Shown piece after piece: positions 1 through 12,026 of a stretch of 64,000 nucleotides of DNA (within the stretch, counting starts at the first letter, position 1; every line of letters starts with the position of its first letter). Both the position numbers and the translations under genes were made by a program. The DNA comes from Pseudomonas mendocina (GTDB lineage: Bacteria; Pseudomonadota; Gammaproteobacteria; Pseudomonadales; Pseudomonadaceae): the NCBI RefSeq assembly GCF_900636545.1, contig NZ_LR134290.1:2170001-2234000 (forward strand). Reading direction: 5' to 3'. The notes under the pieces were generated by a model. It was not told the origin of the DNA. It saw nothing but the letters and a program-made list of their open reading frames with translations, and made no database searches.

Positions 1-486
1 GCGAAAGATGTTCCTGATACCTATTTCGTCTTTATTGGCGGTGGTCGTCTTGATGGGGTGTTGCAAACGATTGCGCAGGAGGCGGGGGTGGCCGATCGTG
101 TTCGCTTTATTTCGACAGTCGCTTTAGCTGAGTTACCTAGCTATACCGCTTCTGCAGACATTGGTGTTCAGCCCATCGAGAATACCTGCTTCAACCACTT
201 CACGACCGATTCCAACAAGCTTTTCGAGTACGTACAGGCAGGGCTGCCTGTCATTGCCTCAGACCTTCCCGAAATCCGCCTCATTGTGCGGCAATACGAT
301 CTTGGTGTATTGGTCAAGCCGGGTGACTCCGCAGCGCTTGTTGAGGCCATTGGCAGGCTTGTTGGCGACAGAGCGCTTCGCCTTCACTATGCCGAGCGTG
401 CGCGTCAGGCATCCAGTCAACTCTCTTGGGAGGCCCAGGAGCATGAGTTGGTGGATCTTTATAAAAAAGTTCTCGGCACTCAATGA
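1..486 (+). CDS. Glycosyltransferase family 4, C-terminal part (5' end outside window)
   Basis: The frame is open from base 1 to the TGA at 484-486, so this is the last 161 codons of a gene that starts upstream. The visible part is the nucleotide-sugar-binding half of a GT-B enzyme. It has a beta strand ending in IGGGR, the segment SKLFEYVQAGLPVIAS typical of GT4 enzymes, and the usual C-terminal helix. Proteins of this kind add a sugar to a growing lipid-linked glycan at the cytoplasmic face. Its position at the start of a locus ending in wbpL-wbpM suggests O-antigen or another surface polysaccharide. The donor and acceptor cannot be read from this fragment. Its stop overlaps the ATG of a 31-codon ORF (ATGA). 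Confidence 0.85.
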   Translation, partial: AKDVPDTYFVFIGGGRLDGVLQTIAQEAGVADRVRFISTVALAELPSYTASADIGVQPIENTCFNHFTTDSNKLFEYVQAGLPVIASDLPEIRLIVRQYDLGVLVKPGDSAALVEAIGRLVGDRALRLHYAERARQASSQLSWEAQEHELVDLYKKVLGTQ

Positions 487-578
487 GTAATTGGCGTGCT
501 TCTCATTCTACTTCGACTTCGAAAAAAGAGAGTAATTTTGAACAACTCTATGCGTGGAACCGAGGGCTGAGCTCATGA
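483..578 (+). CDS. 31-aa ORF joining the glycosyltransferase to the next gene by ATGA overlaps
   Basis: The ATG at 483-485 overlaps the TGA of the glycosyltransferase, and its own TGA at 576-578 overlaps the ATG at 575 of the next gene. Both junctions are therefore ATGA, the classic form for translational coupling. The peptide begins MSNWRASHSTSTSKK and ends NFEQLYAWNRGLSS. It is Ser/Thr-rich, with no membrane segment and no domain I recognise. No good independent ribosome binding site is visible, so translation would depend on ribosomes arriving from the upstream gene. It may be a real small protein, a coupling leader for the membrane protein, or a leftover of a larger deleted gene. Confidence 0.45.
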   Translation: MSNWRASHSTSTSKKESNFEQLYAWNRGLSS

Positions 579-2287
579 TGGCTTCCGTGACGCAGACGTT
601 GCGTTGGGCACTGTCTCTCGGCGCAAAATTTGCGCGCGTTGTGCCAGCGAACACATTAACGATTGTAGGCTTGACCCTGGTTTCGCAAATATCCTCTCTG
701 TTGGCTTTTTTCCTACCGTTGAAAGTCATTATCTTGCTGGGTTCAGAGCGCGTGCCGCGGTATTTTCCCGAGCGTCTGGCTGCGTTGGATTGGGAGATAC
801 TGATTGGTTCTTTATGTTTGGGAACTATAGGTTTTTACTTGCTGCACCTATTGGCAGAAAAGCTGATTCGCAGTATCACCACTCAAGGCGCGCAGCGTCT
901 GCTCTTGCGTAGCCATAAGATGGCGCTATTCGATAATCAAGATGAATTAGCCCGAGATGCTTATTCGCGCTTCTCTCGGGCCTTGGCAAGCGGTGTGTTC
1001 ATCGCTTTTGCCTTGGGAGGCTTGGGTTATTTCTACCCGACGATGTCGGCAGTGTTGTTCGGGTATATGCTGCTGGCTTGGGTAGTGATTTACAGCCTGC
1101 ACACGTGGAGTCAAGGCTTTCGACAGAAGCTTGAGCGGAATCTGGCGAGCGTTCTGGCGATAGCTTCCGGGTTCGGCTTTTTCTTCGCTTTCGGTTACCT
1201 GGTCTGCGATTTCATTCTATGGACTCCGCCTGGAGTTATTGTTGGTATCGTCGCGCTCCTGTTGAGCAGGCAGTTGATGCAGCGTATGGCTGGCATGATA
1301 GGTGATCTTGCCAACCTGAGGCGGCAGCAAAGCAAGCTGGATGCGTTATTTTTCCACGGTAAGGTTCTTTTACCTTCGTCCTCGCACGAGAAGGGCGAGT
1401 TTTTGCGTCTGTTAGACCCTGAGTGTCGCAAAGACTGGGTTCAGTCTTTGCTGCGTGAACACACTGCCTGGCAAGGCGACGACGTGGATATTAGCTGGCA
1501 ACAGACGGGTATCGCGAATGTCGCTGCCTTGGCGATCAAGTTCGGCGCCGAGGGATACCTGATAAAGCTTTATGACGCCAACCGACGCACGCTGGCGCTG
1601 CATGAGTCCGTGCTGGCTTCTGAAGCTCTAACCGATTTGCCGGCATTACGCCTATGTGGTGTAACGAAAGTGGCAGGGCTGCATTGTTTGTTGTATGAGC
1701 AGCCCGACGGCGCTCTCGTAAGCATGTTGGCGGGCAGAAGGCTTCGTAGGCAGTTACTTGCAAGCTTGATGCATGTTCAGCCGAGCAGTGCTCTGATGCA
1801 GCGCTATAAACGTTCACGGCCTTGTCTATGGCAGAGGCTGCATGCTGACAATCTGCAGAAGATGCGGATCGCAACCATCGACACCTCCCAGCGACAGCAG
1901 TTGGATCGCTTTGTAGAGGCTCTGCCAAAACTGATTGAGCTGTTACAGCGTCTACCTGTATGGATATTCACCCCCGATACCGGCTTCGCTAATATTTACC
2001 AGTGTGCAAACTCTGGGCCGGTTCTGCTGAATTGGGGGCGCTGGAGCATGGAGCCGATTGGAGCGGGATGGCCAGTGCTGCGTTTGGGGGATTTGGCCGA
2101 GCTGCTGGGCCAGGCACAGTTGCTACGGAAGGAGTTGCAGGGCCTAGAGGCGTGGCAATTGGAACTCGCCGCACTGTGCGCCGCGATCGAGGCAAGCTGC
2201 AATGCGCAGCGCTATTCAGATGCGATAGCCTTGCTGCCTGCTGTGCTTGAACGTCTCGATGGATACTCGGAGATTGCCCAGGCTTGA
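575..2287 (+). CDS. Polytopic membrane protein with a large, possibly kinase-like cytoplasmic tail
   Basis: I chose the ATG at 575 because GAGGG at 562-566 lies 8 bases upstream; a GTG at 554 is in frame but less likely. The 570-aa product has about five or six hydrophobic segments in its first 260 residues, with spacing that recalls the transmembrane domain of ABC exporters. There is no Walker A or LSGGQ signature. The last 300 residues are soluble. One stretch, with YLIKLYDANRRTLALHES followed by a hinge-like YEQPDGA, vaguely resembles the N-lobe of aminoglycoside-phosphotransferase or protein kinase-like folds. I do not recognise the family. Its place between a glycosyltransferase and cysC suggests a role in making, modifying or exporting the polysaccharide. 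Confidence 0.6.
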   Translation: MMASVTQTLRWALSLGAKFARVVPANTLTIVGLTLVSQISSLLAFFLPLKVIILLGSERVPRYFPERLAALDWEILIGSLCLGTIGFYLLHLLAEKLIRSITTQGAQRLLLRSHKMALFDNQDELARDAYSRFSRALASGVFIAFALGGLGYFYPTMSAVLFGYMLLAWVVIYSLHTWSQGFRQKLERNLASVLAIASGFGFFFAFGYLVCDFILWTPPGVIVGIVALLLSRQLMQRMAGMIGDLANLRRQQSKLDALFFHGKVLLPSSSHEKGEFLRLLDPECRKDWVQSLLREHTAWQGDDVDISWQQTGIANVAALAIKFGAEGYLIKLYDANRRTLALHESVLASEALTDLPALRLCGVTKVAGLHCLLYEQPDGALVSMLAGRRLRRQLLASLMHVQPSSALMQRYKRSRPCLWQRLHADNLQKMRIATIDTSQRQQLDRFVEALPKLIELLQRLPVWIFTPDTGFANIYQCANSGPVLLNWGRWSMEPIGAGWPVLRLGDLAELLGQAQLLRKELQGLEAWQLELAALCAAIEASCNAQRYSDAIALLPAVLERLDGYSEIAQA

Positions 2288-2563
2288 GGTTTTGCTGGGG
2301 CGGCACGGATTTTGTGCTTGCAGCGTCTGGTTGACCGGTTTGTAGGTCTGCGCTTGGTTACTGCTTAGGTTAAAATCCCTCTAGCGTTTTGGCTTGCTGT
2401 GGCTCTGAGTTTGATTACCAGCAACTGGATCGGAGCCGGCAGGCTTTAATCCATTCGAAGAAAGCCTTATGCGAGGTAGGAGCATATCTAGCAAGAGCGC
2501 TTTCAGTAAGCCCAAAAAATCTGGAACGATTTTATTTTTAACGATTGGAAACGACTTCACTAC
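2288..2563. other. AT-richer intergenic stretch before cysC
   Basis: These 276 bases have no supported gene. They are clearly richer in A+T than the flanking genes, especially 2360-2380 and 2505-2560, and probably hold the promoter for the cysC group. I could not match a convincing -35/-10 pair with proper spacing. There is no strong terminator for the preceding gene. Confidence 0.4.
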
Positions 2564-3172
2564 ATGAGCATAAACTCCAACATCGTCTGGCAGACCTACA
2601 AGGTCAACAAGGCGCATCGCTCCGAACAGAAACGTCAGCAGCCATGTGTTCTCTGGTTTACGGGGCTTAGTGGGTCTGGCAAATCGACCCTGGCCAACGC
2701 ATTGGAGCAGAGGTTGTTCGAGCTTAACCATCACACCTATCTACTGGATGGCGATAACGTTCGACATGGGTTGAACAAAGACTTGGGGTTCTCCGATCAG
2801 GACCGGCAGGAGAACATTCGCCGTATAGGAGAGCTTTCAGCCCTGTTTGTCGATGCCGGAATGCTGGTGTTGGCCGCCTTCATCTCGCCGTTTCGCGCTG
2901 AGCGAGAAATGGTTCGAGAGCTCGTTGGCCCTGGCGAGTTCGTGGAAGTCTACGTGGCTACGCCGTTGAGCACTTGTGAATTGCGCGACCCCAAAGGGCT
3001 ATACAAGAAAGCTCGCGCGGGGGAGATCCGTAATTTTACTGGCATCGACTCGGATTACGAGGTGCCTGAAAACCCTGAGCTGTCGATTGATACTTCTGTG
3101 CTTGACCTTGATGAGGCGGTGATGAAAATCGTCGAGTTTCTCAAGAGTCGCAGCATCTTGAAGGAAGTTTGA
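2564..3172 (+). CDS. cysC: Adenylyl-sulfate (APS) kinase
   Basis: The 202-aa product is a full-length stand-alone APS kinase, which phosphorylates APS to PAPS with ATP. The P-loop GLSGSGKST lies at residues 34-42. It is followed by the APS-binding segment [16 protein letters not shown], by FISPFRAER, and by [10 protein letters not shown] with FTGIDSDYE, all hallmarks of CysC. Pseudomonads usually make PAPS for cysteine synthesis with a fused CysNC protein, and no cysD/cysN is seen here. A separate cysC in a polysaccharide locus therefore points to a PAPS supply for sulfotransfer. The stop is one base from the next ATG, so it is co-transcribed with the DHH gene. Confidence 0.95.
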
Positions 3173-3173
3173 G

Positions 3174-4133
3174 ATGCAAAGTTATGATGTATTCAATGGA
3201 GACGCTGACGGTATTTGCGCGCTAATACAGTTGCGTTTGGCCGAGCCGCGAGAGTCGGTTCTCGTTACGGGGGTTAAGCGCGATATAAGCCTCTTGCGCC
3301 AGTTACCGTTGGGTCATGCGCTGGATGTGACAGCGCTAGATATAAGTCTGGACAAGAATCGCGAAGCACTCGAAGCGTTGTTGCTGGCCGGTAGCCGTAT
3401 TTTTTATTGCGATCATCATTATCCAGGTGAGGAAATACCCTCTCACCCCGCTTTTACTGCATTGATTGATACGGGATCCTCTACTTGCACTAGCTTGCTG
3501 GTAGACCAACATTTGAAAGGGCGCTTTCACCATTGGGCCATTGTTGCTGCATTTGGTGACAATCTTAACGCGGTGGCCGAGAAATTATCAGCTGAGGCTG
3601 GCTTGAGTTCAGCGCAGGCGCAGTCGCTACAGCATCTGGGCATCTGTGTGAACTATAACGGTTACGGTGCCGCTCTACCTGATCTTCACTACCATCCAGC
3701 CGATCTGTTCCAAGCCCTTTTGCCTTTCTCCGATCCTCTAATGTTGATGGCAGAGCAGCCAGAAGTGTGGCGCAACTTAAGTGCAGGATACGCTGAGGAT
3801 ATGAGTAAGGGGTTAGCATGTCCGGCGTTGCATCATTGTAATTCGGCATTGGTCGTTGTACTGCCTGACGAGGCGTGGGCTCGTAGGGTGAGTGGTGTGC
3901 TGGGTAATGAGCTGGCAAATCGCAATCCCGATCAGGCTTGTGCGGTGGTGACTGAGGCAGGCGGTGAGCATGTTCAGGTCAGCATACGTGCTCCGTTGAA
4001 TAATCGAAAAGGTGCCGATGATTTGGCTCGCCGCTTCCCCACTGGCGGTGGGCGGCAAGCTGCTGCCGGTATTAATGAGCTTCCGTATGCTCAGCTAGAG
4101 GATTTCGTGGCAGCAATGGCGCAGCAGTGGTGA
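3174..4133 (+). CDS. DHH/DHHA1-family phosphoesterase, possible PAP phosphatase
   Basis: The 319-aa protein shows the DHH superfamily metal-binding motifs in order: NGDADG at residues 8-13, an aspartate at 56 (ALDIS), CDHH at 79-82, and IDTGSST near 98-104. A C-terminal GGGRQAAAG matches the DHHA1 substrate-binding motif. Relatives include NrnA, which hydrolyses nano-RNA and also 3'-phosphoadenosine 5'-phosphate (PAP), the by-product of PAPS-dependent sulfotransfer. The gene follows cysC after one base, with GGAAG as a probable ribosome binding site in the end of cysC. From that context I infer that it removes PAP. The family could equally act on another phosphodiester, and the substrate is unproven. 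Confidence 0.8.
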   Translation: MQSYDVFNGDADGICALIQLRLAEPRESVLVTGVKRDISLLRQLPLGHALDVTALDISLDKNREALEALLLAGSRIFYCDHHYPGEEIPSHPAFTALIDTGSSTCTSLLVDQHLKGRFHHWAIVAAFGDNLNAVAEKLSAEAGLSSAQAQSLQHLGICVNYNGYGAALPDLHYHPADLFQALLPFSDPLMLMAEQPEVWRNLSAGYAEDMSKGLACPALHHCNSALVVVLPDEAWARRVSGVLGNELANRNPDQACAVVTEAGGEHVQVSIRAPLNNRKGADDLARRFPTGGGRQAAAGINELPYAQLEDFVAAMAQQW

Positions 4134-4206
4134 TAGCTTGCAGGTGACGTGCTAAGTAAGTACGTGGTGATTTCGCTGCGTATTCAGCTTTTATTTCAAG
4201 ACAGCG

Positions 4207-4240
4207 CCCCACCTCCTCGAGGTGGGGTTCTGCTTTTTTG
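4207..4240 (+). terminator. Rho-independent terminator after the DHH gene
   Basis: A perfect 9-bp stem, CCCCACCTC at 4207-4215 and GAGGTGGGG at 4219-4227, with a 3-base loop is followed by a T-rich tail containing six Ts in a row. It lies between the DHH gene and the permease and so separates them, or acts as a partial attenuator. The hairpin also shows that the GTG at 4222 is not the permease start. Confidence 0.75.
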
Positions 4241-4266
4241 CTTGTAGATACTCAAGTGGGTGGTTT

Positions 4267-6033
4267 GTGAGCTTGGATGCGTTTTTTACATTGTTTGTAG
4301 TTGCCAGTGTTTTGCTGGCTCTAGCTATTACAAAGCTGTCGGCAGATCTCGTCCTGCTGAGTGCCATGACGTGCTTACTTGCCACTGGCATCTTGACGCC
4401 GGCACAAGCGTTGGCAGGATTTTCCAATACCGGCGTGATCACTATTGCTACTTTGTATGTGGTTGCCGCGGGTCTTAAGGAGACTGGTGCCGTGCAGTGG
4501 ATATCTGCACGGTTACTGGGGCAGCCGCATTCAGTGCAGGGTGCGCTGGGGCGTATGCTGTTGCCGGTCGGCATTTTGAGTGCGTTTATGAACAATACCA
4601 CCGTTGTAGCTATGTTTATACCTGCTATTCAAGATTGGTCTCAGCGCCTGGCAATTCCCGCGTCCAAATTACTATTACCACTTAGTTATGCCACTATCTT
4701 GGGAGGCACTTGCACACTGATTGGTACTAGTACCAATCTTGTAGTAAACGGTCTATTGCAAAGCCAAACAGGAACCCACCTGGGGCTATTTGATGTGGCC
4801 TTGGTTGGGGTGCCGATCCTGCTTGCCGGTACCGTATTTATGATGCTATTCGCCGGCAAGATTTTGCCCAGTCGTGATGGTGTGCAGGAGCAACTCGATC
4901 AGGCTCGAGAGTATGGGGTGGAGGTTGAGGTTGAGGGCTCGGGTCCTTTGCCAGGCAAGACCATCGCTCAGGCTGGTTTGCGTAACCTGATGTATGGCTA
5001 CTTGGCCGAGATTGAGCGCAATGGCGACTTGATTACTGCTGTGGAGCCTAATCGTACCCTGCAGGGGGGCGATAAACTTTACTTCATTGGTGCTCCGGAG
5101 TGTGCAAGTGAACTGCGCCGAATACAGGGCCTGAAGCCGGCCAGTGGTAGTATTCATAAGCTGGATGTAGCCAATCATCAGCGTTGCCTGGTCGAGGTTG
5201 TGTTGAGTGCTGAATTTCCGGCTCTTGGTAAAACTATACGTGAATCACGTTTTCGCACTTGTTTCAATGCTGTTGTCCTGTCCGTATCTCGTGAGGGTAA
5301 TCGGCTCCCAGGAAAACTGGGTAGCATCGAATTGCAGGCAGGTGACACGCTTCTGTTGGAAGCCAGCCATGAGTTTGTCGAGCAATATCGTTTTCGCCGA
5401 GATTTCCTTTTGCTCAGTGCGTTGAACGATTCGACTCCGCCTGATTTCTCCAAGGCTCCTTTGGCCTTGGGGATTCTATTGAGCATGGTGTTACTATCAG
5501 CGCTGGGCGTTTTGCCATTACTGGAGGCTGCGCTTATCGCAGCAGGAGCCATGGTAACCTGCCGCTGTATTACGGCGAGCAAAGCGAGGCAGCATATTGA
5601 TCTACCCGTTATTGTGGTGATCGCGGCGTCATTCGCTTTGGGTAATGCTATGACTGTAACGGGGGCGGCAGCAGATATTGCGCGCTTTGTATTTTCGGGT
5701 GACCAGGTGTCACCATGGATTGCATTGCTAGGTGTTTATCTACTGACTGTTTTTTTTACCGAGCTGATTACAAATAATGCTGCAGCTGTTTTGATGTTTC
5801 CTGTGGGGATGGCTGTGTCGGAGCAGTTGGGCGTGTCGTTTTTACCGTTTGTGATTGCAATTATGTTTGCGGCATCGGCAAGCTTTTTGACTCCTATCGG
5901 CTATCAAACGAATCTTATGGTTTATGGTCCGGGGCGTTATAAATTTTCGGACTATTTCAGGCTTGGGCTTCCTGTAAGCTTTTTGGTTGCGATAATTGTC
6001 GTGCTTCTAGTGCCTATGATATGGATTTTTTAG
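4267..6033 (+). CDS. SLC13-type permease with two central TrkA_C (RCK_C) domains, probable sulfate/anion importer
   Basis: I take GTG at 4267 (product MSLDAFFTLF...) as the start because the frame upstream runs into the terminator hairpin; no strong ribosome binding site is visible, so this is moderate. The 588-aa product has a hydrophobic N-terminal half with the signatures MNNTTVVAMF and GTSTNLV. A hydrophilic middle (about residues 200-390) contains two TrkA_C-like regulatory units, and the hydrophobic C-terminal half has ITNNAAAVLMFP and TPIGYQTNLMVYGPG. This is the layout of the SLC13/DASS group, which includes sulfate and dicarboxylate transporters. Next to cysC and a possible PAP phosphatase, sulfate uptake is the natural inference. 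Confidence 0.85.
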   Translation: MSLDAFFTLFVVASVLLALAITKLSADLVLLSAMTCLLATGILTPAQALAGFSNTGVITIATLYVVAAGLKETGAVQWISARLLGQPHSVQGALGRMLLPVGILSAFMNNTTVVAMFIPAIQDWSQRLAIPASKLLLPLSYATILGGTCTLIGTSTNLVVNGLLQSQTGTHLGLFDVALVGVPILLAGTVFMMLFAGKILPSRDGVQEQLDQAREYGVEVEVEGSGPLPGKTIAQAGLRNLMYGYLAEIERNGDLITAVEPNRTLQGGDKLYFIGAPECASELRRIQGLKPASGSIHKLDVANHQRCLVEVVLSAEFPALGKTIRESRFRTCFNAVVLSVSREGNRLPGKLGSIELQAGDTLLLEASHEFVEQYRFRRDFLLLSALNDSTPPDFSKAPLALGILLSMVLLSALGVLPLLEAALIAAGAMVTCRCITASKARQHIDLPVIVVIAASFALGNAMTVTGAAADIARFVFSGDQVSPWIALLGVYLLTVFFTELITNNAAAVLMFPVGMAVSEQLGVSFLPFVIAIMFAASASFLTPIGYQTNLMVYGPGRYKFSDYFRLGLPVSFLVAIIVVLLVPMIWIF

Positions 6034-6124
6034 GGGAGGCTTTGTTTGGATTTATGATGCGCTCTAAAAATAGTTGGCTAATGTAAGCCCTTCTGTCGAT
6101 TTCTGGTTATTTATAGGGGTAAGT

Positions 6125-6571
6125 ATGAGGAATAGTGGAGTAATTGTGTGTTTTTTTTCGGCGCTGCTTGCTGGTTGTGGCGAGGATATTGAGAGGCCGC
6201 AAGATCGGTCAGCCGATAATAACAGGCCTGTGCCTGTCCGTGAGTTTGTTAAAAATGCTATTAACTTGGATCGCGATGGGGCACTTGTCTTTGAAGGTCG
6301 TATTGTGCGATACGATCTGATCCGTAATGAGCGAGGTACATTTGATCGTTATGTGGTCGAGTCGCCAAAATCTTTGATGGGGCTGGAAGCTGCAGTTTTT
6401 CATGATCTAGCTCGCAAGGGATATACCCGCCGTGTTAGGCAAGAAACACCTAAGCGATTTTTGGTACACTATCTACAAAAGGGCATGAAAACGGTTATTG
6501 CAGATTATCGTGCAAAAGATGGTTCCAACACACTGCAGCGCCTCGTTATTACTGTGCGAGCTGATGACTGA
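6125..6571 (+). CDS. Hypothetical lipoprotein
   Basis: The start is ATG at 6125, with AGGGG at 6115-6119 as ribosome binding site; an earlier in-frame start at 6074 would bury the signal peptide. The 148-aa product begins with a short hydrophobic signal ending in the lipobox LLAGC, with the lipidated Cys near residue 18. The mature part is hydrophilic and mixed alpha/beta, with no domain I recognise. The gene is AT-rich compared with the core genes. It follows the permease by about 90 bases and precedes a glycosyltransferase, so it is part of the variable polysaccharide island. Confidence 0.75.
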   Translation: MRNSGVIVCFFSALLAGCGEDIERPQDRSADNNRPVPVREFVKNAINLDRDGALVFEGRIVRYDLIRNERGTFDRYVVESPKSLMGLEAAVFHDLARKGYTRRVRQETPKRFLVHYLQKGMKTVIADYRAKDGSNTLQRLVITVRADD

Positions 6572-6581
6572 TTCGAGGTGC

Positions 6582-6770
6582 ATGCTATATGAAAATTTTT
6601 ACATTAGATGTATTGCGCTAATTATGGTTTCGTTTTTTTTTAGTGCTTGTTTTGGTTTTTATAGTGGGCTTTATATGGCCGTTGTTACGTGCGGCGTTGA
6701 GGCTGGATATCCGGACTTGGTATATGTTGCTCAATATCTACCAAGTATCACTGCTGTCAGAGTCATATGA
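6582..6770 (+). CDS. Possible 62-aa membrane peptide, ATGA-overlapped with the next gene, or gene remnant
   Basis: An ORF from ATG 6582 to TGA 6768-6770 encodes 62 residues with one strongly hydrophobic stretch (IALIMVSFFFSACFGFYSG). Its stop overlaps the ATG of the next glycosyltransferase as ATGA. The nearby GAGG at 6575-6578 is only 3 bases from this ATG. It is better spaced for ATG 6589 in another frame, but that frame stops after 10 codons and then reopens as another hydrophobic sequence reaching 6837. The AT-rich composition and the two competing frames suggest either a real small membrane protein or a frameshifted remnant. Confidence is low. Confidence 0.3.
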   Translation: MLYENFYIRCIALIMVSFFFSACFGFYSGLYMAVVTCGVEAGYPDLVYVAQYLPSITAVRVI

Positions 6771-7957
6771 CCTGCCGAATTCTGTTGTTGACGTTCTTCT
6801 ACCCGCCAGATCTTTCGGCTGGGTCTTTTCGGGCTAGCGCGCTTGTTGAGCGGCTCCAGCGCTACGAAGATGCTGGTGTCCAGCTTGATGTGCTGACGAC
6901 TCAGCCCAATCGTTACACCGACCATAGTGTCGAGGCTGTATCGATGGAGGAGTTGCCCGGGCTGCGAATAAAGCGTGTACGTTTGCCGATGATACGCCAA
7001 GGTTTTGTTGGTCAGGCGCTGTCATTCGTACGTTACGCCCGGAAGGTTCATCGTCTTACTTCAAGCCAGGAATACGACATAGTGGTGGCGACATCGTCTC
7101 GCCTTATGACTGCTGCACTCGGTGCCTGGGTCGCCTATCGCCGGCGATCATATCTGTACCTGGACATTCGCGATATTTTCGTCGAAAGCCTGCCGCTACT
7201 TTTTCGTTACCCGCTCGGAAGCTTTCTGGGGCTTGTGTTTGGTGCTGTCGAGCGCTGGACCGTAGGCCGGGCGGATCGCGTCAACCTGGTTTCAAGGGGG
7301 TTTCTTGAATATTTCCAGCGACGTTACCCTGGGCGGGCTTTCTCCCTTTTTTCCAATGGAGTAGATGACGCGTTTGTGAATCTCGCGGCTACTGCCAGGG
7401 GAAGTGCACGTGAAGCTGTCGAGCCGATACAGGTGCTGTATGCCGGTAATCTGGGGGACGGGCAGGGCATGCACCTGATCCTGCCTGAACTCGCGCGGCG
7501 CCTGGGGCCAAGGGTTCGGTTCCGTATCGTGGGGGCGGGTGGGCGTCTTGATGTGTTGCGTGATTATCTTCAAACCAGTGATCTGGACAATGTGGAGTTG
7601 TTGCCGCCTGTCGCAAGAGAGGATCTATTAGAATTGTATCGGGGGTGCGACGTTCTCTTCTTGCACCTCAATGATTATCCCGCATTCAAGCGAGTGCTGC
7701 CTTCTAAACTGTTCGAGTATGCCGCGACCGGTAAACCCATCTGGGCCGGAGTCGCGGGCTATGCAGCAGAGTTTATCGCCGCCGAGCTGACCAATACCGC
7801 AGTGTTTGCGCCTTGCGACGCAGAGGCCGCGCTTGAAAGTTTCGAGCGACTGGAGCTTGGGCTGACTGATCGCGCTGCGTTTGTCCAGCGCTATGCGCGT
7901 CAGCGCATCATGGACGAGATGGCGCAGGACATACTGCAATTGCTGGAGCCGGCCTGA
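6767..7957 (+). CDS. Glycosyltransferase family 4
   Basis: The 396-aa product is a complete GT-B glycosyltransferase. The N-terminal domain begins RILLLTFFYPPDLSAG, a strand and loop typical of WbuB-like enzymes acting on deoxy-aminosugars. The C-terminal domain has VLYAGNLGDGQGM near residue 225, FRIVGAGG, and PSKLFEYAATGKPIWAG near 310-325, which bind the nucleotide sugar. It works on the cytoplasmic face of the inner membrane. Its stop overlaps the next ATG (TGATG), and with the reductase, wbpL and wbpM it forms a tight operon. It probably adds the second sugar to the WbpL product, but donor and linkage are not readable. Confidence 0.88.
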   Translation: MTCRILLLTFFYPPDLSAGSFRASALVERLQRYEDAGVQLDVLTTQPNRYTDHSVEAVSMEELPGLRIKRVRLPMIRQGFVGQALSFVRYARKVHRLTSSQEYDIVVATSSRLMTAALGAWVAYRRRSYLYLDIRDIFVESLPLLFRYPLGSFLGLVFGAVERWTVGRADRVNLVSRGFLEYFQRRYPGRAFSLFSNGVDDAFVNLAATARGSAREAVEPIQVLYAGNLGDGQGMHLILPELARRLGPRVRFRIVGAGGRLDVLRDYLQTSDLDNVELLPPVAREDLLELYRGCDVLFLHLNDYPAFKRVLPSKLFEYAATGKPIWAGVAGYAAEFIAAELTNTAVFAPCDAEAALESFERLELGLTDRAAFVQRYARQRIMDEMAQDILQLLEPA

Positions 7958-8916
7958 TGCAGGTATTGGTTAGTGGAGCCAATGGCCTGGTTGGCGCGGC
8001 ACTTCTGCGCCGTCTGACGCGTGAGCCCGCCGTGCAGCCGGTTGCCGGTGTGCGCCTGCTGGCGTCGGGCGATCTTCATTGCGAGCAGCGGGCGCTGGGC
8101 GATCTGGCCGAGGGGCGGGTCGCTGCTAAGGCGCTGTGTGGGATTGAGGTGGTGGTGCACACGGCCGCTCGGGTGCATGTGATGGAAGAGAGCCAACAGA
8201 ATCCGCTAGCGGCATTCAGGGCGGTCAATGTGGAGGGGACACGAGCTCTGCTCGAGGCTGCCGCTGGGGCCGGTGTGCGGCGCTTCGTTCTGGTCAGTTC
8301 GATCAAGGTGAATGGCGAGGTTAGTCTTCCGGGCAGGCCTTTTTCCGAACGGGACGCGGCGAACCCTCAGGATGCCTATGCCCAGTCCAAGTGGGAAGCA
8401 GAGCAGCTTGTACAAGCATTTTGTGAGCAGCACGGTATGGAATGGGTGGTGGTTCGGCCGCCACTGGTCTACGGACCTGGGGTGCGGGCCAACTTTCGGC
8501 GCATGATGCAGGCGCTTGCGCGTGGCCTGCCGCTACCGCTGGGGAGTTTGCACAATCTACGCAGCCTGGTGGCGCTGGAGAACCTGGTCGATTTTCTTGT
8601 CTGTTGCATGACTCATCCGGCGGCCGCCAATCAGCGTTTTCTGGTGAGCGATGGCAGGGATCTGTCCGTGACCGAGTTGAGCCGCGCTCTCGCCACCGCG
8701 CTCGGTTCGCGCTCTTGGTTGGTGCCATTGCCTGGCGCCTGGCTGCATGCAGGCTTTTATCTGCTGGGACGGGCGGCGGCATCGCAACGCCTGTGCGGCG
8801 AGTTACGGGTCGACAGCGGTAAGGCACGCAGCTTGCTGCATTGGCAGGCGCCGCAGGGTGTCGATGAGGCATTGGCCGCGACTGCGCAGGATTTCCTGCG
8901 AGGGCGCGAGCAATGA
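7957..8916 (+). CDS. NAD-dependent epimerase/reductase, WbpV-like UDP-4-keto-sugar reductase
   Basis: The 319-aa product is an extended SDR. It has the Rossmann motif GANGLVGAAL at residues 6-15, HTAARVHVM as the NNAG-like segment, a serine pair VSSIKVNG, and the catalytic YAQSK (YxxxK) near residue 140. Proteins in this position just upstream of wbpL-wbpM in pseudomonads (WbpV, WbpK types) reduce or epimerise the 4-keto product of WbpM to a UDP-6-deoxy-HexNAc such as UDP-QuiNAc or UDP-FucNAc. Which epimer is formed cannot be told from the sequence alone. The stop overlaps the wbpL ATG (ATGA), so the products are made in step. Confidence 0.85.
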   Translation: MQVLVSGANGLVGAALLRRLTREPAVQPVAGVRLLASGDLHCEQRALGDLAEGRVAAKALCGIEVVVHTAARVHVMEESQQNPLAAFRAVNVEGTRALLEAAAGAGVRRFVLVSSIKVNGEVSLPGRPFSERDAANPQDAYAQSKWEAEQLVQAFCEQHGMEWVVVRPPLVYGPGVRANFRRMMQALARGLPLPLGSLHNLRSLVALENLVDFLVCCMTHPAAANQRFLVSDGRDLSVTELSRALATALGSRSWLVPLPGAWLHAGFYLLGRAAASQRLCGELRVDSGKARSLLHWQAPQGVDEALAATAQDFLRGREQ

Positions 8917-9920
8917 TTCCGATATGGCTAGTGGGAGTGTTGCTGGTGTCTTGGGGGCTGACAGGCGGTGTGCGTCGTTACGCATTGGCGCGTAGCCTAC
9001 TGGATGTGCCTAATGCACGCAGCTCGCATGTGGTGCCAACTCCCCGTGGCGGCGGGCTGGCGATTGTCTTGGCGTTTCTCGCGGTGCTGCCCATATTGGC
9101 CGCGGAGGCGGTGTTGCAATGGCCGGTGATGTGGGCGCTGTTCGGTGGCGGCGCCTGGGTGGCGGCGCTAGGTTTTCTCGACGATCACGGCCATATCGCT
9201 GCGCGCTGGCGTTTGCTCGGGCATTTTGCTGCGGCAGCCTGGGTCTTGGTCTGGCTGGGTGGCTTACCGCCATTGCGAGTGGTCGATGTATCTTTAGAGT
9301 TGGGCTGGCTGGGTCATGGATTGGCGCTGGTAGGCCTGGTGTGGCTGCTTAACCTCTATAACTTCATGGATGGAATTGACGGTATTGCGGCAGTTGAGGC
9401 CATTTGTGTATGCCTCAGTGGTGCTTTGCTCTATGGGCTACTTGGCCATCATTCTCTGGCATGGACGCCTTTGGCGCTGGGGCTGGCGGCATTGGGCTTT
9501 CTGTACTGGAATTTCCCGCCGGCTCGAATCTTCATGGGAGATGCCGGCAGTGGCTTTCTCGGTTTGATGCTGGGTGCTCTGGCGTTGCAGGCGGCGTGGG
9601 TAGCGAGCGAGCTGCTGTGGTCTTGGCTGATCCTGCTCGGCGTTTTCGTAGTGGATGCGACCTGGACTCTGTTGCATCGCCTGATAAGGCGCGAGCGGGT
9701 CTACGAGGCGCACCGTAGTCATGCCTACCAGTTTGCTTCGCGCCGGTTTCGACGACATTTACCGGTAACGCTGGCGGTCGCGTTGTTGAATTTGATATGG
9801 CTATTGCCCCTGGCCGTTGGTGTGGCGCTGGGCTATTTGGATGGCGTTGTGGGATTGCTTTTGGCATATAGTCCCTTGGCGTGGTTGGCATGGCGTTTCG
9901 AGGCGGGAGCGGTGGAGTAG
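8913..9920 (+). CDS. wbpL: Undecaprenyl-phosphate sugar-1-phosphate transferase
   Basis: The 335-aa product is a polytopic inner-membrane enzyme of the MraY/WecA/WbpL family, with about ten hydrophobic segments. Family motifs are visible: TPRGGGLAI near residue 47, LDDHGH near 90 (the DD pair), NLYNFMDGIDGIAA near 148-161, and FMGDAGSGFLG near 208. It moves a HexNAc-1-phosphate from UDP-sugar to undecaprenyl phosphate, which starts the O-antigen unit. It is translationally coupled to the upstream reductase. About 105 bases separate it from wbpM, with no clear terminator between. Confidence 0.93.
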   Translation: MIPIWLVGVLLVSWGLTGGVRRYALARSLLDVPNARSSHVVPTPRGGGLAIVLAFLAVLPILAAEAVLQWPVMWALFGGGAWVAALGFLDDHGHIAARWRLLGHFAAAAWVLVWLGGLPPLRVVDVSLELGWLGHGLALVGLVWLLNLYNFMDGIDGIAAVEAICVCLSGALLYGLLGHHSLAWTPLALGLAALGFLYWNFPPARIFMGDAGSGFLGLMLGALALQAAWVASELLWSWLILLGVFVVDATWTLLHRLIRRERVYEAHRSHAYQFASRRFRRHLPVTLAVALLNLIWLLPLAVGVALGYLDGVVGLLLAYSPLAWLAWRFEAGAVE

Positions 9921-10025: not shown

Positions 10026-12026
10026 ATGACGGATAAGCTGCGCAAGAGGCTGGTCAAGTTGCCACGGCGCTACAAGCGTCTGCTGCAGGTTACGGTGGAT
10101 ATCGGCTTGGTCTGGCTAGCGCTGTGGCTGGCATTTGTGGTGCGCCTGGGATTCGACCAGCGCATCGAGCCATGGGGTGACCACCTCTGGTTATTCGTCG
10201 TGGCTCCATTTATCGCCATTCCCTGCTTTGTCCGGCTGGGTATGTACCGCGCGGTAATGCGCTATTTCGGCAATGATGCGCTGTTGGCGATTTTCAAGGC
10301 GGTCACGTTCTCCGCCTTGACGCTGGCGCTGGCTGTTTACTGGTATCGCGATCCGCCAGCGCTGGTGCCTCGTTCGCTTGTGTTCAACTACTGGTGGTTG
10401 AGTCTGTTCATGATCGGCGGGCTGCGCTTGCTGATGCGTCAGTACTTTATGGGCGACTGGTATGTGGCGGCGCGGAAGATGCCGTTCGTTAATGCCAGTC
10501 GTGCGGGTGCTTTGCCCAAGGTGGCTGTTTACGGAGCTGGGGCTGCGGGTAATCAGCTTGTCGCTGCGCTTCGGATGGGGCGATCTATGCAGCCGGTGGC
10601 GTTCGTCGATGATGACGACAATATTGCCACGCGAATCATCGCCGGTCTCCAGGTCTACAAGCCCAAACACATCCAGCAGATGATCGAAGAGACCGGGGCG
10701 CAGGAAATTCTACTAGCGGTGCCCTCTCTCTCGCGGGCGCGGCGGCGTGAAATACTTGAAGACTTGGAGGGTTTTCCGCTGCATGTTCGTTCTGTGCCTG
10801 GTTTCATGGATCTAGCTAGTGGGCGGGTGAAGGTCGACGACCTGCAGGAGGTCGATATTGCCGACTTGCTGGGGCGAGACCCAGTACCGCCAAACCAGGC
10901 ATTGCTGGACCGCTGCATCAAAGGCCAGGTGGTAATGGTCACCGGTGCGGGCGGTTCTATCGGGTCCGAGTTGTGTAGGCAGATCGTTGCAAGTGCTCCA
11001 AGGGTGCTGGTGCTGTTCGATCACTCGGAATACAACCTTTACAGCATTCACGCCGAGTTGGAGGAACGTATTCAGCGCGAATACCTGCCCTTGCAGCTAG
11101 TTCCCATTTTGGGGTCTGTACGTCACGCAGCTTGGCTGCTGGATGTTATGCAGACTTGGCATGTTAATACTGTGTACCACGCTGCGGCCTATAAGCATGT
11201 GCCCATAGTTGAGCACAACATTGCCGAGGGCGTACTTAACAATGTGGTAGGGACGTTAAATGTCGCCCAGTCTGCGATTCAGGCGGGTGTGGAGCATTTC
11301 GTGCTTATTTCAACTGACAAGGCGGTCCGACCTACCAATGTGATGGGTAGTAGCAAGCGTCTTGCCGAGATGATTCTACAGGCGTTGAGTGATGAGTCGG
11401 CCCCCGTTCTATTTGGTGAGGATGGTGTTCATCGCGTTAATAAAACGCGCTTCAATATGGTTCGTTTCGGCAATGTATTGGGTTCGTCTGGCTCAGTGAT
11501 TCCGAGGTTTCATGAGCAGATTCGGCGCGGTGGGCCACTTACCGTTACTCACCCCAATATCACTCGCTACTTCATGACGATCCCGGAAGCAGCACAATTG
11601 GTGATACAGGCTGGCTCGCTGGGTCAGGGCGGAGATGTGTTTGTTCTAGACATGGGGCCGCCGGTTAAGATCCTCGATTTGGCCGAGAAGATGATCCATT
11701 TGAGTGGCCTGAGTGTGCGTTCTGAGCGCAATCCGCAAGGCGATATCTCGATAGAATTTACCGGTTTGCGGCCAGGTGAAAAGCTGTACGAAGAGCTGTT
11801 GATTGGTAATGACGTCAGTGAGACACAGCATCCCATGATCATGCGAGCGAACGAGGAGATGCTCTCCTGGGATGTGTACAAGCGTGTATTGAGGGAGCTA
11901 CTGGGAGCATTGGAAAGTGACGATTATGACCGAGTGCGACAGTTGCTTCGGGAGACGGTCAGTGGCTATCGCCCGGAGGGGGATATTGTCGACTGGATTC
12001 ATATGCGGCAACGTTCAGATAACTGA
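10026..12026 (+). CDS. wbpM: UDP-GlcNAc 4,6-dehydratase, membrane-anchored
   Basis: The 666-aa length is right for WbpM/FlaA1-type long dehydratases. The first 110 residues hold about four membrane helices. A CoA-binding-like Rossmann unit (VAVYGAGAAGNQLV, residues 160-280) follows, and then the catalytic SDR domain with the nucleotide-binding TGAGGSIGSELCRQ near residue 300. The active site carries STDKAVRPTNVMGSSKR, where Met replaces the usual SDR tyrosine, as is typical of this group. The reaction gives UDP-4-keto-6-deoxy-GlcNAc, the substrate of the upstream reductase. GAGGAAC just before the ATG is a strong ribosome binding site. The gene marks the conserved end of the O-antigen locus. 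Confidence 0.95.
   Translation: MTDKLRKRLVKLPRRYKRLLQVTVDIGLVWLALWLAFVVRLGFDQRIEPWGDHLWLFVVAPFIAIPCFVRLGMYRAVMRYFGNDALLAIFKAVTFSALTLALAVYWYRDPPALVPRSLVFNYWWLSLFMIGGLRLLMRQYFMGDWYVAARKMPFVNASRAGALPKVAVYGAGAAGNQLVAALRMGRSMQPVAFVDDDDNIATRIIAGLQVYKPKHIQQMIEETGAQEILLAVPSLSRARRREILEDLEGFPLHVRSVPGFMDLASGRVKVDDLQEVDIADLLGRDPVPPNQALLDRCIKGQVVMVTGAGGSIGSELCRQIVASAPRVLVLFDHSEYNLYSIHAELEERIQREYLPLQLVPILGSVRHAAWLLDVMQTWHVNTVYHAAAYKHVPIVEHNIAEGVLNNVVGTLNVAQSAIQAGVEHFVLISTDKAVRPTNVMGSSKRLAEMILQALSDESAPVLFGEDGVHRVNKTRFNMVRFGNVLGSSGSVIPRFHEQIRRGGPLTVTHPNITRYFMTIPEAAQLVIQAGSLGQGGDVFVLDMGPPVKILDLAEKMIHLSGLSVRSERNPQGDISIEFTGLRPGEKLYEELLIGNDVSETQHPMIMRANEEMLSWDVYKRVLRELLGALESDDYDRVRQLLRETVSGYRPEGDIVDWIHMRQRSDN

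Follow-up and report, generated by a model that had tools for sequence, protein, structure and literature searches.

The cysC-DHH-permease genes and their polysaccharide cluster

The window analysed here (64,000 nucleotides from Pseudomonas mendocina, bases 2170001-2234000 of a genome that consists of one contig with 5,192,837 bases) begins inside a polysaccharide locus. In this locus a stand-alone cysC gene for adenosine 5'-phosphosulfate (APS) kinase, a gene for a DHH/DHHA1 phosphoesterase and a gene for a permease with TrkA_C domains follow each other on the same strand and in the order that an earlier note on this DNA had described (Table 1). That note proposed that the three genes support the sulfation of a surface glycan, with 3'-phosphoadenosine 5'-phosphosulfate (PAPS) as sulfate donor.

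The cysC product matches Pfam APS_kinase with 232.6 bits (cut-off 21.1), the curated NCBIfam family apsK with 269.1 bits, well above its cut-off of 138.7, and the plant APS kinase 3uie with 213 bits; it is predicted to form PAPS. The DHH gene begins one base past the cysC stop, as noted before, and the two genes are tightly coupled. In the case of the permease, we found a CitMHS match of 248.4 bits, two TrkA_C stretches and a Na_sulph_symp match of 32.5 bits (cut-off 27). The NCBIfam dass model (TIGR00785) scores 115.8 bits, below the SLC13/DASS cut-off of 198.6, and judged by these scores the protein belongs to the wider CitMHS/IT group. Close relatives adjoin cysC in four other loci (L049, L050, L091 and L154), with 71-73% identity to those of L049 and L050 and 70% to that of L154, and this gene context suggests sulfate as the substrate. 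The permease frame is open from GTG 4222, which falls within a terminator-like hairpin (stretch 4195-4245: -24.8 kcal/mol, z -5.5 versus 200 shuffles), so that the in-frame GTG 4267 is the likelier start. Because the hairpin lies between cysC-DHH and the permease gene, the three genes need not share one transcript, and the permease may be transcribed separately. Consensus scans revealed no excess of terminators or promoters.

Table 1. Features at the start of the window (positions in the window).
Feature	Position	Strand	Basis or remark
Glycosyltransferase, 3' part	1-486	+	Pfam Glycos_transf_1; 414 aa (amino acids) overall, start upstream at L008:18243
Membrane protein, predicted ABC (ATP-binding cassette)-exporter-type transmembrane part and degenerate phosphotransferase/kinase-like domain	554-2287	+	AF2 (AlphaFold2) model, fold search; start uncertain
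cysC, APS kinase (APS to PAPS)	2564-3172	+	APS_kinase, apsK and 3uie matches
DHH/DHHA1 phosphoesterase, predicted PAP (3'-phosphoadenosine 5'-phosphate) phosphatase	3174-4133	+	Fold 8a8k, metal motif, cysC linkage
Terminator-like hairpin and T run that separate the permease from the DHH gene	4206-4228	+	
CitMHS/SLC13-type permease, two TrkA_C stretches, predicted sulfate importer	4267-6033	+	Frame open from 4222
Glycosyltransferase	6767-7957	+	Pfam
NAD-dependent epimerase/dehydratase	7957-8916	+	Pfam Epimerase
wbpL-like initiating glycosyltransferase (family 4)	8913-9920	+	Pfam Glycos_transf_4
wbpM-like nucleotide-sugar dehydratase	10026-12026	+	Pfam Polysacc_synt_2, 411.8 bits

The earlier note had predicted a sulfotransferase just upstream of the window, and two Sulfotransfer_2 proteins above the Pfam cut-off (22 bits) are indeed encoded there among glycosyltransferases. 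In the upstream stretch (L008), genes for a UDP-N-acetylglucosamine 2-epimerase and a UDP-sugar dehydrogenase are followed by that of a 1252-aa protein (L008:8173-11931), which carries a Sulfotransfer_2 domain at its N-terminus (41.6 bits) and a glycosyltransferase domain at its C-terminus. Then come genes for a second glycosyltransferase, a heparinase II/III-like protein, a weakly Sulfotransfer_1-like protein, a hydrolase-like protein, a 217-aa Sulfotransfer_2 protein (L008:17521-18174; 61.2 bits), whose gene ends 827 bases before base 1, and the glycosyltransferase that reaches into the window. According to a PF03567 search of the 5.19 Mb genome, these are its only two Sulfotransfer_2 proteins. 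Among the 548 relatives of the 217-aa protein at E 1e-3, the closest with a name comes from Pseudomonas sp. CC6-YY-74 (80%); the protein gave no match to PDB sequences. The third sulfotransferase-like protein (L008:15667-16680) was not counted, as its Sulfotransfer_1 score of 14.3 bits is below the cut-off of 22. A gene for PAPS formation and sulfotransferase genes are thereby found within one polysaccharide locus, the combination by which sulfated-polysaccharide clusters are recognised. The long middle part of the 1252-aa protein matches coiled-coil SMC models weakly.

The wbpL-like and wbpM-like genes named in the earlier note were recovered by Pfam at the cluster end. The cluster is placed between rpsA/cmk-type genes and uvrB, as would fit the Pseudomonas O-specific antigen locus. 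Both features argue against the idea that the module sulfates a product other than O-antigen, e.g. a lipid-linked or secreted exopolysaccharide. This idea draws on the scanned cluster proteins, some small open reading frames (ORFs) being outside the scan: Pfam recognised none of the Wzx, Wzy or Wzm/Wzt type among them, and the cluster encodes the heparinase II/III-like protein (L008:14064-15656; 49.5 bits). We regard such a product as possible, though rather unlikely. A heparinase II/III-like protein with 51% identity to this one adjoins a sulfotransferase in another locus (L152).

Pfam and NCBIfam scans gave no match for the membrane protein at 554-2287; its model predicts the degenerate kinase/phosphotransferase-like domain where an ATPase would be. 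Relatives occur chiefly in Halomonas, Marinobacter and Pseudomonas, and they adjoin a sulfotransferase in L152 and a cysC-permease pair in L154; in four other loci, none of the queried genes was close by. The membrane protein is a candidate for the exporter that is missing from the locus. A 165-aa protein without Pfam or NCBIfam match is encoded at positions 6074-6571, after the permease gene and before that of the following glycosyltransferase; its N-terminus looks like a lipoprotein signal. The guanine-cytosine (GC) content is 39-55% across L008 8001-20000 and window positions 1-7000 versus 62-64% further out, which fits an acquired locus. A plasmid search with the three genes yielded 221 records with partial matches in cysC only (at most 15% of the query), none covering 80%.

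Recurrence of the gene trio and sulfur genes elsewhere

We fetched 99 loci of the DHH gene: 39 from a phylum sample (20 from gammaproteobacteria and 19 from other bacteria), 58 from a class sample and two from the genus. The class sample comprised 72 DHH places. Five of these were the window itself or loci that had been fetched before; of the remaining 67, 58 were fetched and nine were not. The DHH gene has cysC or a cysN-cysC fusion at a distance of no more than 8 kb in 27 of the 99 loci: 9/20 in the gammaproteobacteria of the phylum sample, 0/19 outside the class, 1/2 in the genus and 17/58 in the class sample, the latter spread over 12 family codes. Two of the 27 (L047 and L089) are weak cases, with cysC 6-7 kb away on the opposite strand. 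Under an assumed chance of 2% to 0.5% per locus, 17/58 corresponds to a binomial p of 1e-15 to 1e-25, which is a guide only since the loci are related. Within the same distance, 15 loci have the permease, 31 have cysC or permease, and 11 have cysC, DHH gene and SLC13-type permease together, so the trio is found elsewhere, a check that the earlier note had suggested. Gene order and strand vary, e.g. DHH-cysD-cysN-cysC-permease in L049 and L050, cysD-cysN-permease-cysC-DHH in L051, L058, L062 and L063, and DHH-cysC-permease in L091; this variation points to function, not to an arrangement passed on by descent. On the tree of DHH proteins (one fetched locus, for which no DHH ORF was called, was left out here and in the motif count below), the cysC-linked state requires 20 changes, at least seven of them on supported branches, compared to 27 expected if shuffled; the window protein groups with L049, L050 and L091.

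Among the neighbours in linked loci (111 of 139 candidate proteins scanned; of the 28 omitted, 17 came from four permease-only loci and 11 were others), the leading families were Epimerase (10), GDP_Man_Dehyd (9), Bac_transf (7), NTP_transferase (7), UDPG_MGDP_dh_N (5) and Glycos_transf_1 (5). None of these polysaccharide families was among the 25 families listed for unlinked loci (106 of 121 proteins, 26 of 36 loci), where response regulators, cytochrome c assembly and TauE were seen.

Many bacteria use cysC and sulfate permeases to make cysteine, and the trio might accordingly be a general sulfur-assimilation set that stands in an O-antigen locus by happenstance. The genome contains a single non-CysD PAPS_reduct match (2811043, L012), below the cut-offs for PAPS and APS reductases but nearer to PAPS reductase, and assimilation in this genome may thus draw on PAPS as well. 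On the other hand, the housekeeping genes are encoded elsewhere: cysD at 1093020 and a cysN-cysC fusion at about 1095252, both 1.08 Mb from the window, which bears out the earlier statement that cysD and cysN are not near the trio. A tblastn search (1e-8) of the stretches fetched around linked loci detected no cysH-type gene, polysaccharide genes surround these loci, and the window's own cluster encodes sulfotransferases. We therefore consider an assimilatory role of the trio very improbable.

APS kinase matches were found at six places in the genome, the strongest being the window's cysC, a second lone cysC (4992881) and the cysN-cysC fusion. The second lone cysC (14795-15406 of L010, bases 4978000-4997999) is near glycosyltransferases, a Wzm/Wzt-like ABC transporter that scores below the cut-offs of those families, and two Sulfotransfer_3 domains (31.3 and 29.4 bits; cut-off 27). 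L010 is a candidate for a second sulfated-glycan locus in the same genome. A third, weak Sulfotransfer_3 place (824758-825081) is away from both cysC loci.

Fold and distribution of the DHH protein

Pfam support for the identity of the DHH protein is weak on its own, with DHHA1 at 27.6 bits (above the cut-off of 25.9) and DHH at 19.9 bits (below 28.1). The AF2 model and its PDB fold matches across residues 1-319 predict the two-domain DHH/DHHA1 fold. With both fold search programs the best solved match is 8a8k, an archaeal PAP phosphatase of 317 residues versus 319 here. The metal residues of motifs I-IV (D10, D12, D56, D80-H81-H82 and D129) are kept in 99/99 rows. Position 294, however, is R in all 99 rows and does not conform to the GGGH motif VII of the NrnA subfamily (PMC8268124); the AF2 model is uncertain in this GGGR loop. 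The assignment to the DHH/DHHA1 class in the earlier note stands, with 8a8k and not NrnA as the nearest solved protein. At the sequence level, phmmer found no match in the PDB at E 0.1, 8a8k included, and the family profile matched only RecJ 5f54 (E 0.07). The family is large, with at least 8000 relatives scored; a pattern search of the genome contigs with the DHH protein gave 182 pattern matches and no confirmed relative.

Fold, metal motif and cysC linkage strongly suggest that the DHH protein is a PAP phosphatase, and we infer that it hydrolyses PAP. Alternatively, PAPS could indeed be made for a sulfated glycan, with the DHH protein being a nuclease or a cyclic-dinucleotide/oligonucleotide phosphodiesterase (RecJ-, NrnA- or PggH-like) and CysQ clearing PAP. 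Apart from the agreement of both programs on a PAP phosphatase of nearly the same length, the recurrent cysC linkage argues against this, as does the distribution of Orn. We compared CysQ, the DHH gene and Orn on the same 299 genomes, with Orn calls taken from 150/153 above-cut-off rows and the three next best by E-value. Orn was present in all 18 DHH-positive gammaproteobacteria (87/87 irrespective of the DHH gene) and in 53/62 DHH-positive genomes of family f32, outside this class, so that we rejected the DHH protein as a replacement of Orn. A nuclease or phosphodiesterase role is thus improbable in our view.

In family f32, CysQ was above cut-off in 0/74 genomes and the DHH gene was found in 62/74; four more DHH-positive genomes outside the gammaproteobacteria are also without CysQ. 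This co-occurrence, most of it from one lineage, fits a PAP phosphatase able to replace CysQ. The f32 loci (e.g. L067-L079) often have SpoU methylase and FolB genes after the DHH gene and no cysC within reach, and are a housekeeping setting for the same DHH family.

Proposed sulfation pathway and known systems

According to our proposal, the permease would bring sulfate into the cell, CysD and CysN-CysC encoded elsewhere would make APS, and the local CysC would phosphorylate it to PAPS. The upstream Sulfotransfer_2 proteins would then put sulfate on a sugar of the glycan that the adjacent glycosyltransferases assemble, leaving the toxic by-product PAP, and the DHH protein would remove its 3'-phosphate to give adenosine monophosphate (AMP), relieving product inhibition. 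CysQ of the same genome could share this last step. A second PAP-clearing enzyme makes sense, because sulfation yields PAP in the amount of sulfate used. As judged from the sequence, all genes are present and intact, with sulfotransferases in the same cluster. The reactions are proposed from what is known of the protein families; sulfate as the permease substrate, a sulfated sugar in the glycan and the glycan as O-antigen are deduced from gene content.

Three observations weigh against the proposal. The genome also encodes CysQ (494952; 277.2 bits, cut-off 228.8). Within the gammaproteobacteria, DHH and CysQ are not mutually exclusive: CysQ is lacking in 4/18 DHH-positive versus 19/69 DHH-negative genomes, so that replacement of CysQ is supported by co-occurrence in f32 and not in this class. 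Finally, a profile of 120 Sulfotransfer_2 relatives matched in just one of the 27 cysC-linked loci and in none of the 72 others. This profile is narrow (it missed the 1252-aa fusion protein in L008) and the flanks were at most 10 kb, and therefore the result does not mean that the other loci lack sulfotransferases.

Taken together, the two upstream Sulfotransfer_2 genes and the recurrence of the trio support the view of the earlier note that PAPS would be made here for a sulfated surface glycan. We consider it probable that the window encodes such a PAPS module, in which a PAP phosphatase of the DHH type takes the place that CysQ has in others. With somewhat less confidence, we favour the view that the DHH family as a whole is a widespread bacterial PAP phosphatase, the everyday one in CysQ-less lineages and repeatedly recruited as partner of CysC in sulfated-glycan loci; its likeness to an archaeal enzyme of the sulfate pathway would be due to convergence or to a divergence too deep for sequence comparison to recognise. 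If so, thousands of annotations as 'DHH family phosphoesterase' or 'ssDNA exonuclease' would change, the cysC-DHH pairing would mark sulfated surface glycans, and a further enzyme for PAP removal in the making of sulfated sugars would be at hand.

In open-licence literature (titles and abstract starts), we found no link of the DHH family to bacterial sulfation and no description of the fusion protein. The cluster for the sulfated capsule of Cobetia marina KMM 1449, for which sulfate was shown on the glycan, has cysN/cysC, cysD, cysQ and a sulfate permease (PMC11766843). As in that cluster, genes for PAPS, a PAP phosphatase, a sulfate permease (both predicted here), glycosyltransferases and sulfotransferases share one polysaccharide locus, whereas in the window cysC stands alone and a protein of the DHH type replaces CysQ. 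CysQ (TIGR01331) would share the proposed function, but has another fold and other metals. The capsule cluster of Vibrio sp. KMM 8419, with a second cysC, cysN, cysD and sulfotransferases, likewise has sulfate-activation and sulfotransferase genes inside a polysaccharide locus, which its authors call a hallmark of sulfated polysaccharide synthesis; its text names neither a DHH protein nor SLC13 (PMC11641403). Known members of the NrnA/pApase group (Bacillus NrnA, Pyrococcus pApase) share the DHH-DHHA1 architecture and have PAP phosphatase activity (PMC8268124). The archaeal 8a8k is MtPAPP, the PAP phosphatase of Methanothermococcus thermolithotrophicus (PMC10322725), which has the same overall fold as the window protein and a gene near sulfate-activation genes. 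It differs in that it acts in sulfate reduction, not sulfation, has only 13% identity, without a sequence match, and shows a His6 versus Asn8 difference. PAPS genes and sulfotransferases in a polysaccharide locus are thus an established sign of a sulfated glycan; the new part is a large DHH family without assigned role that is recurrently found beside cysC.

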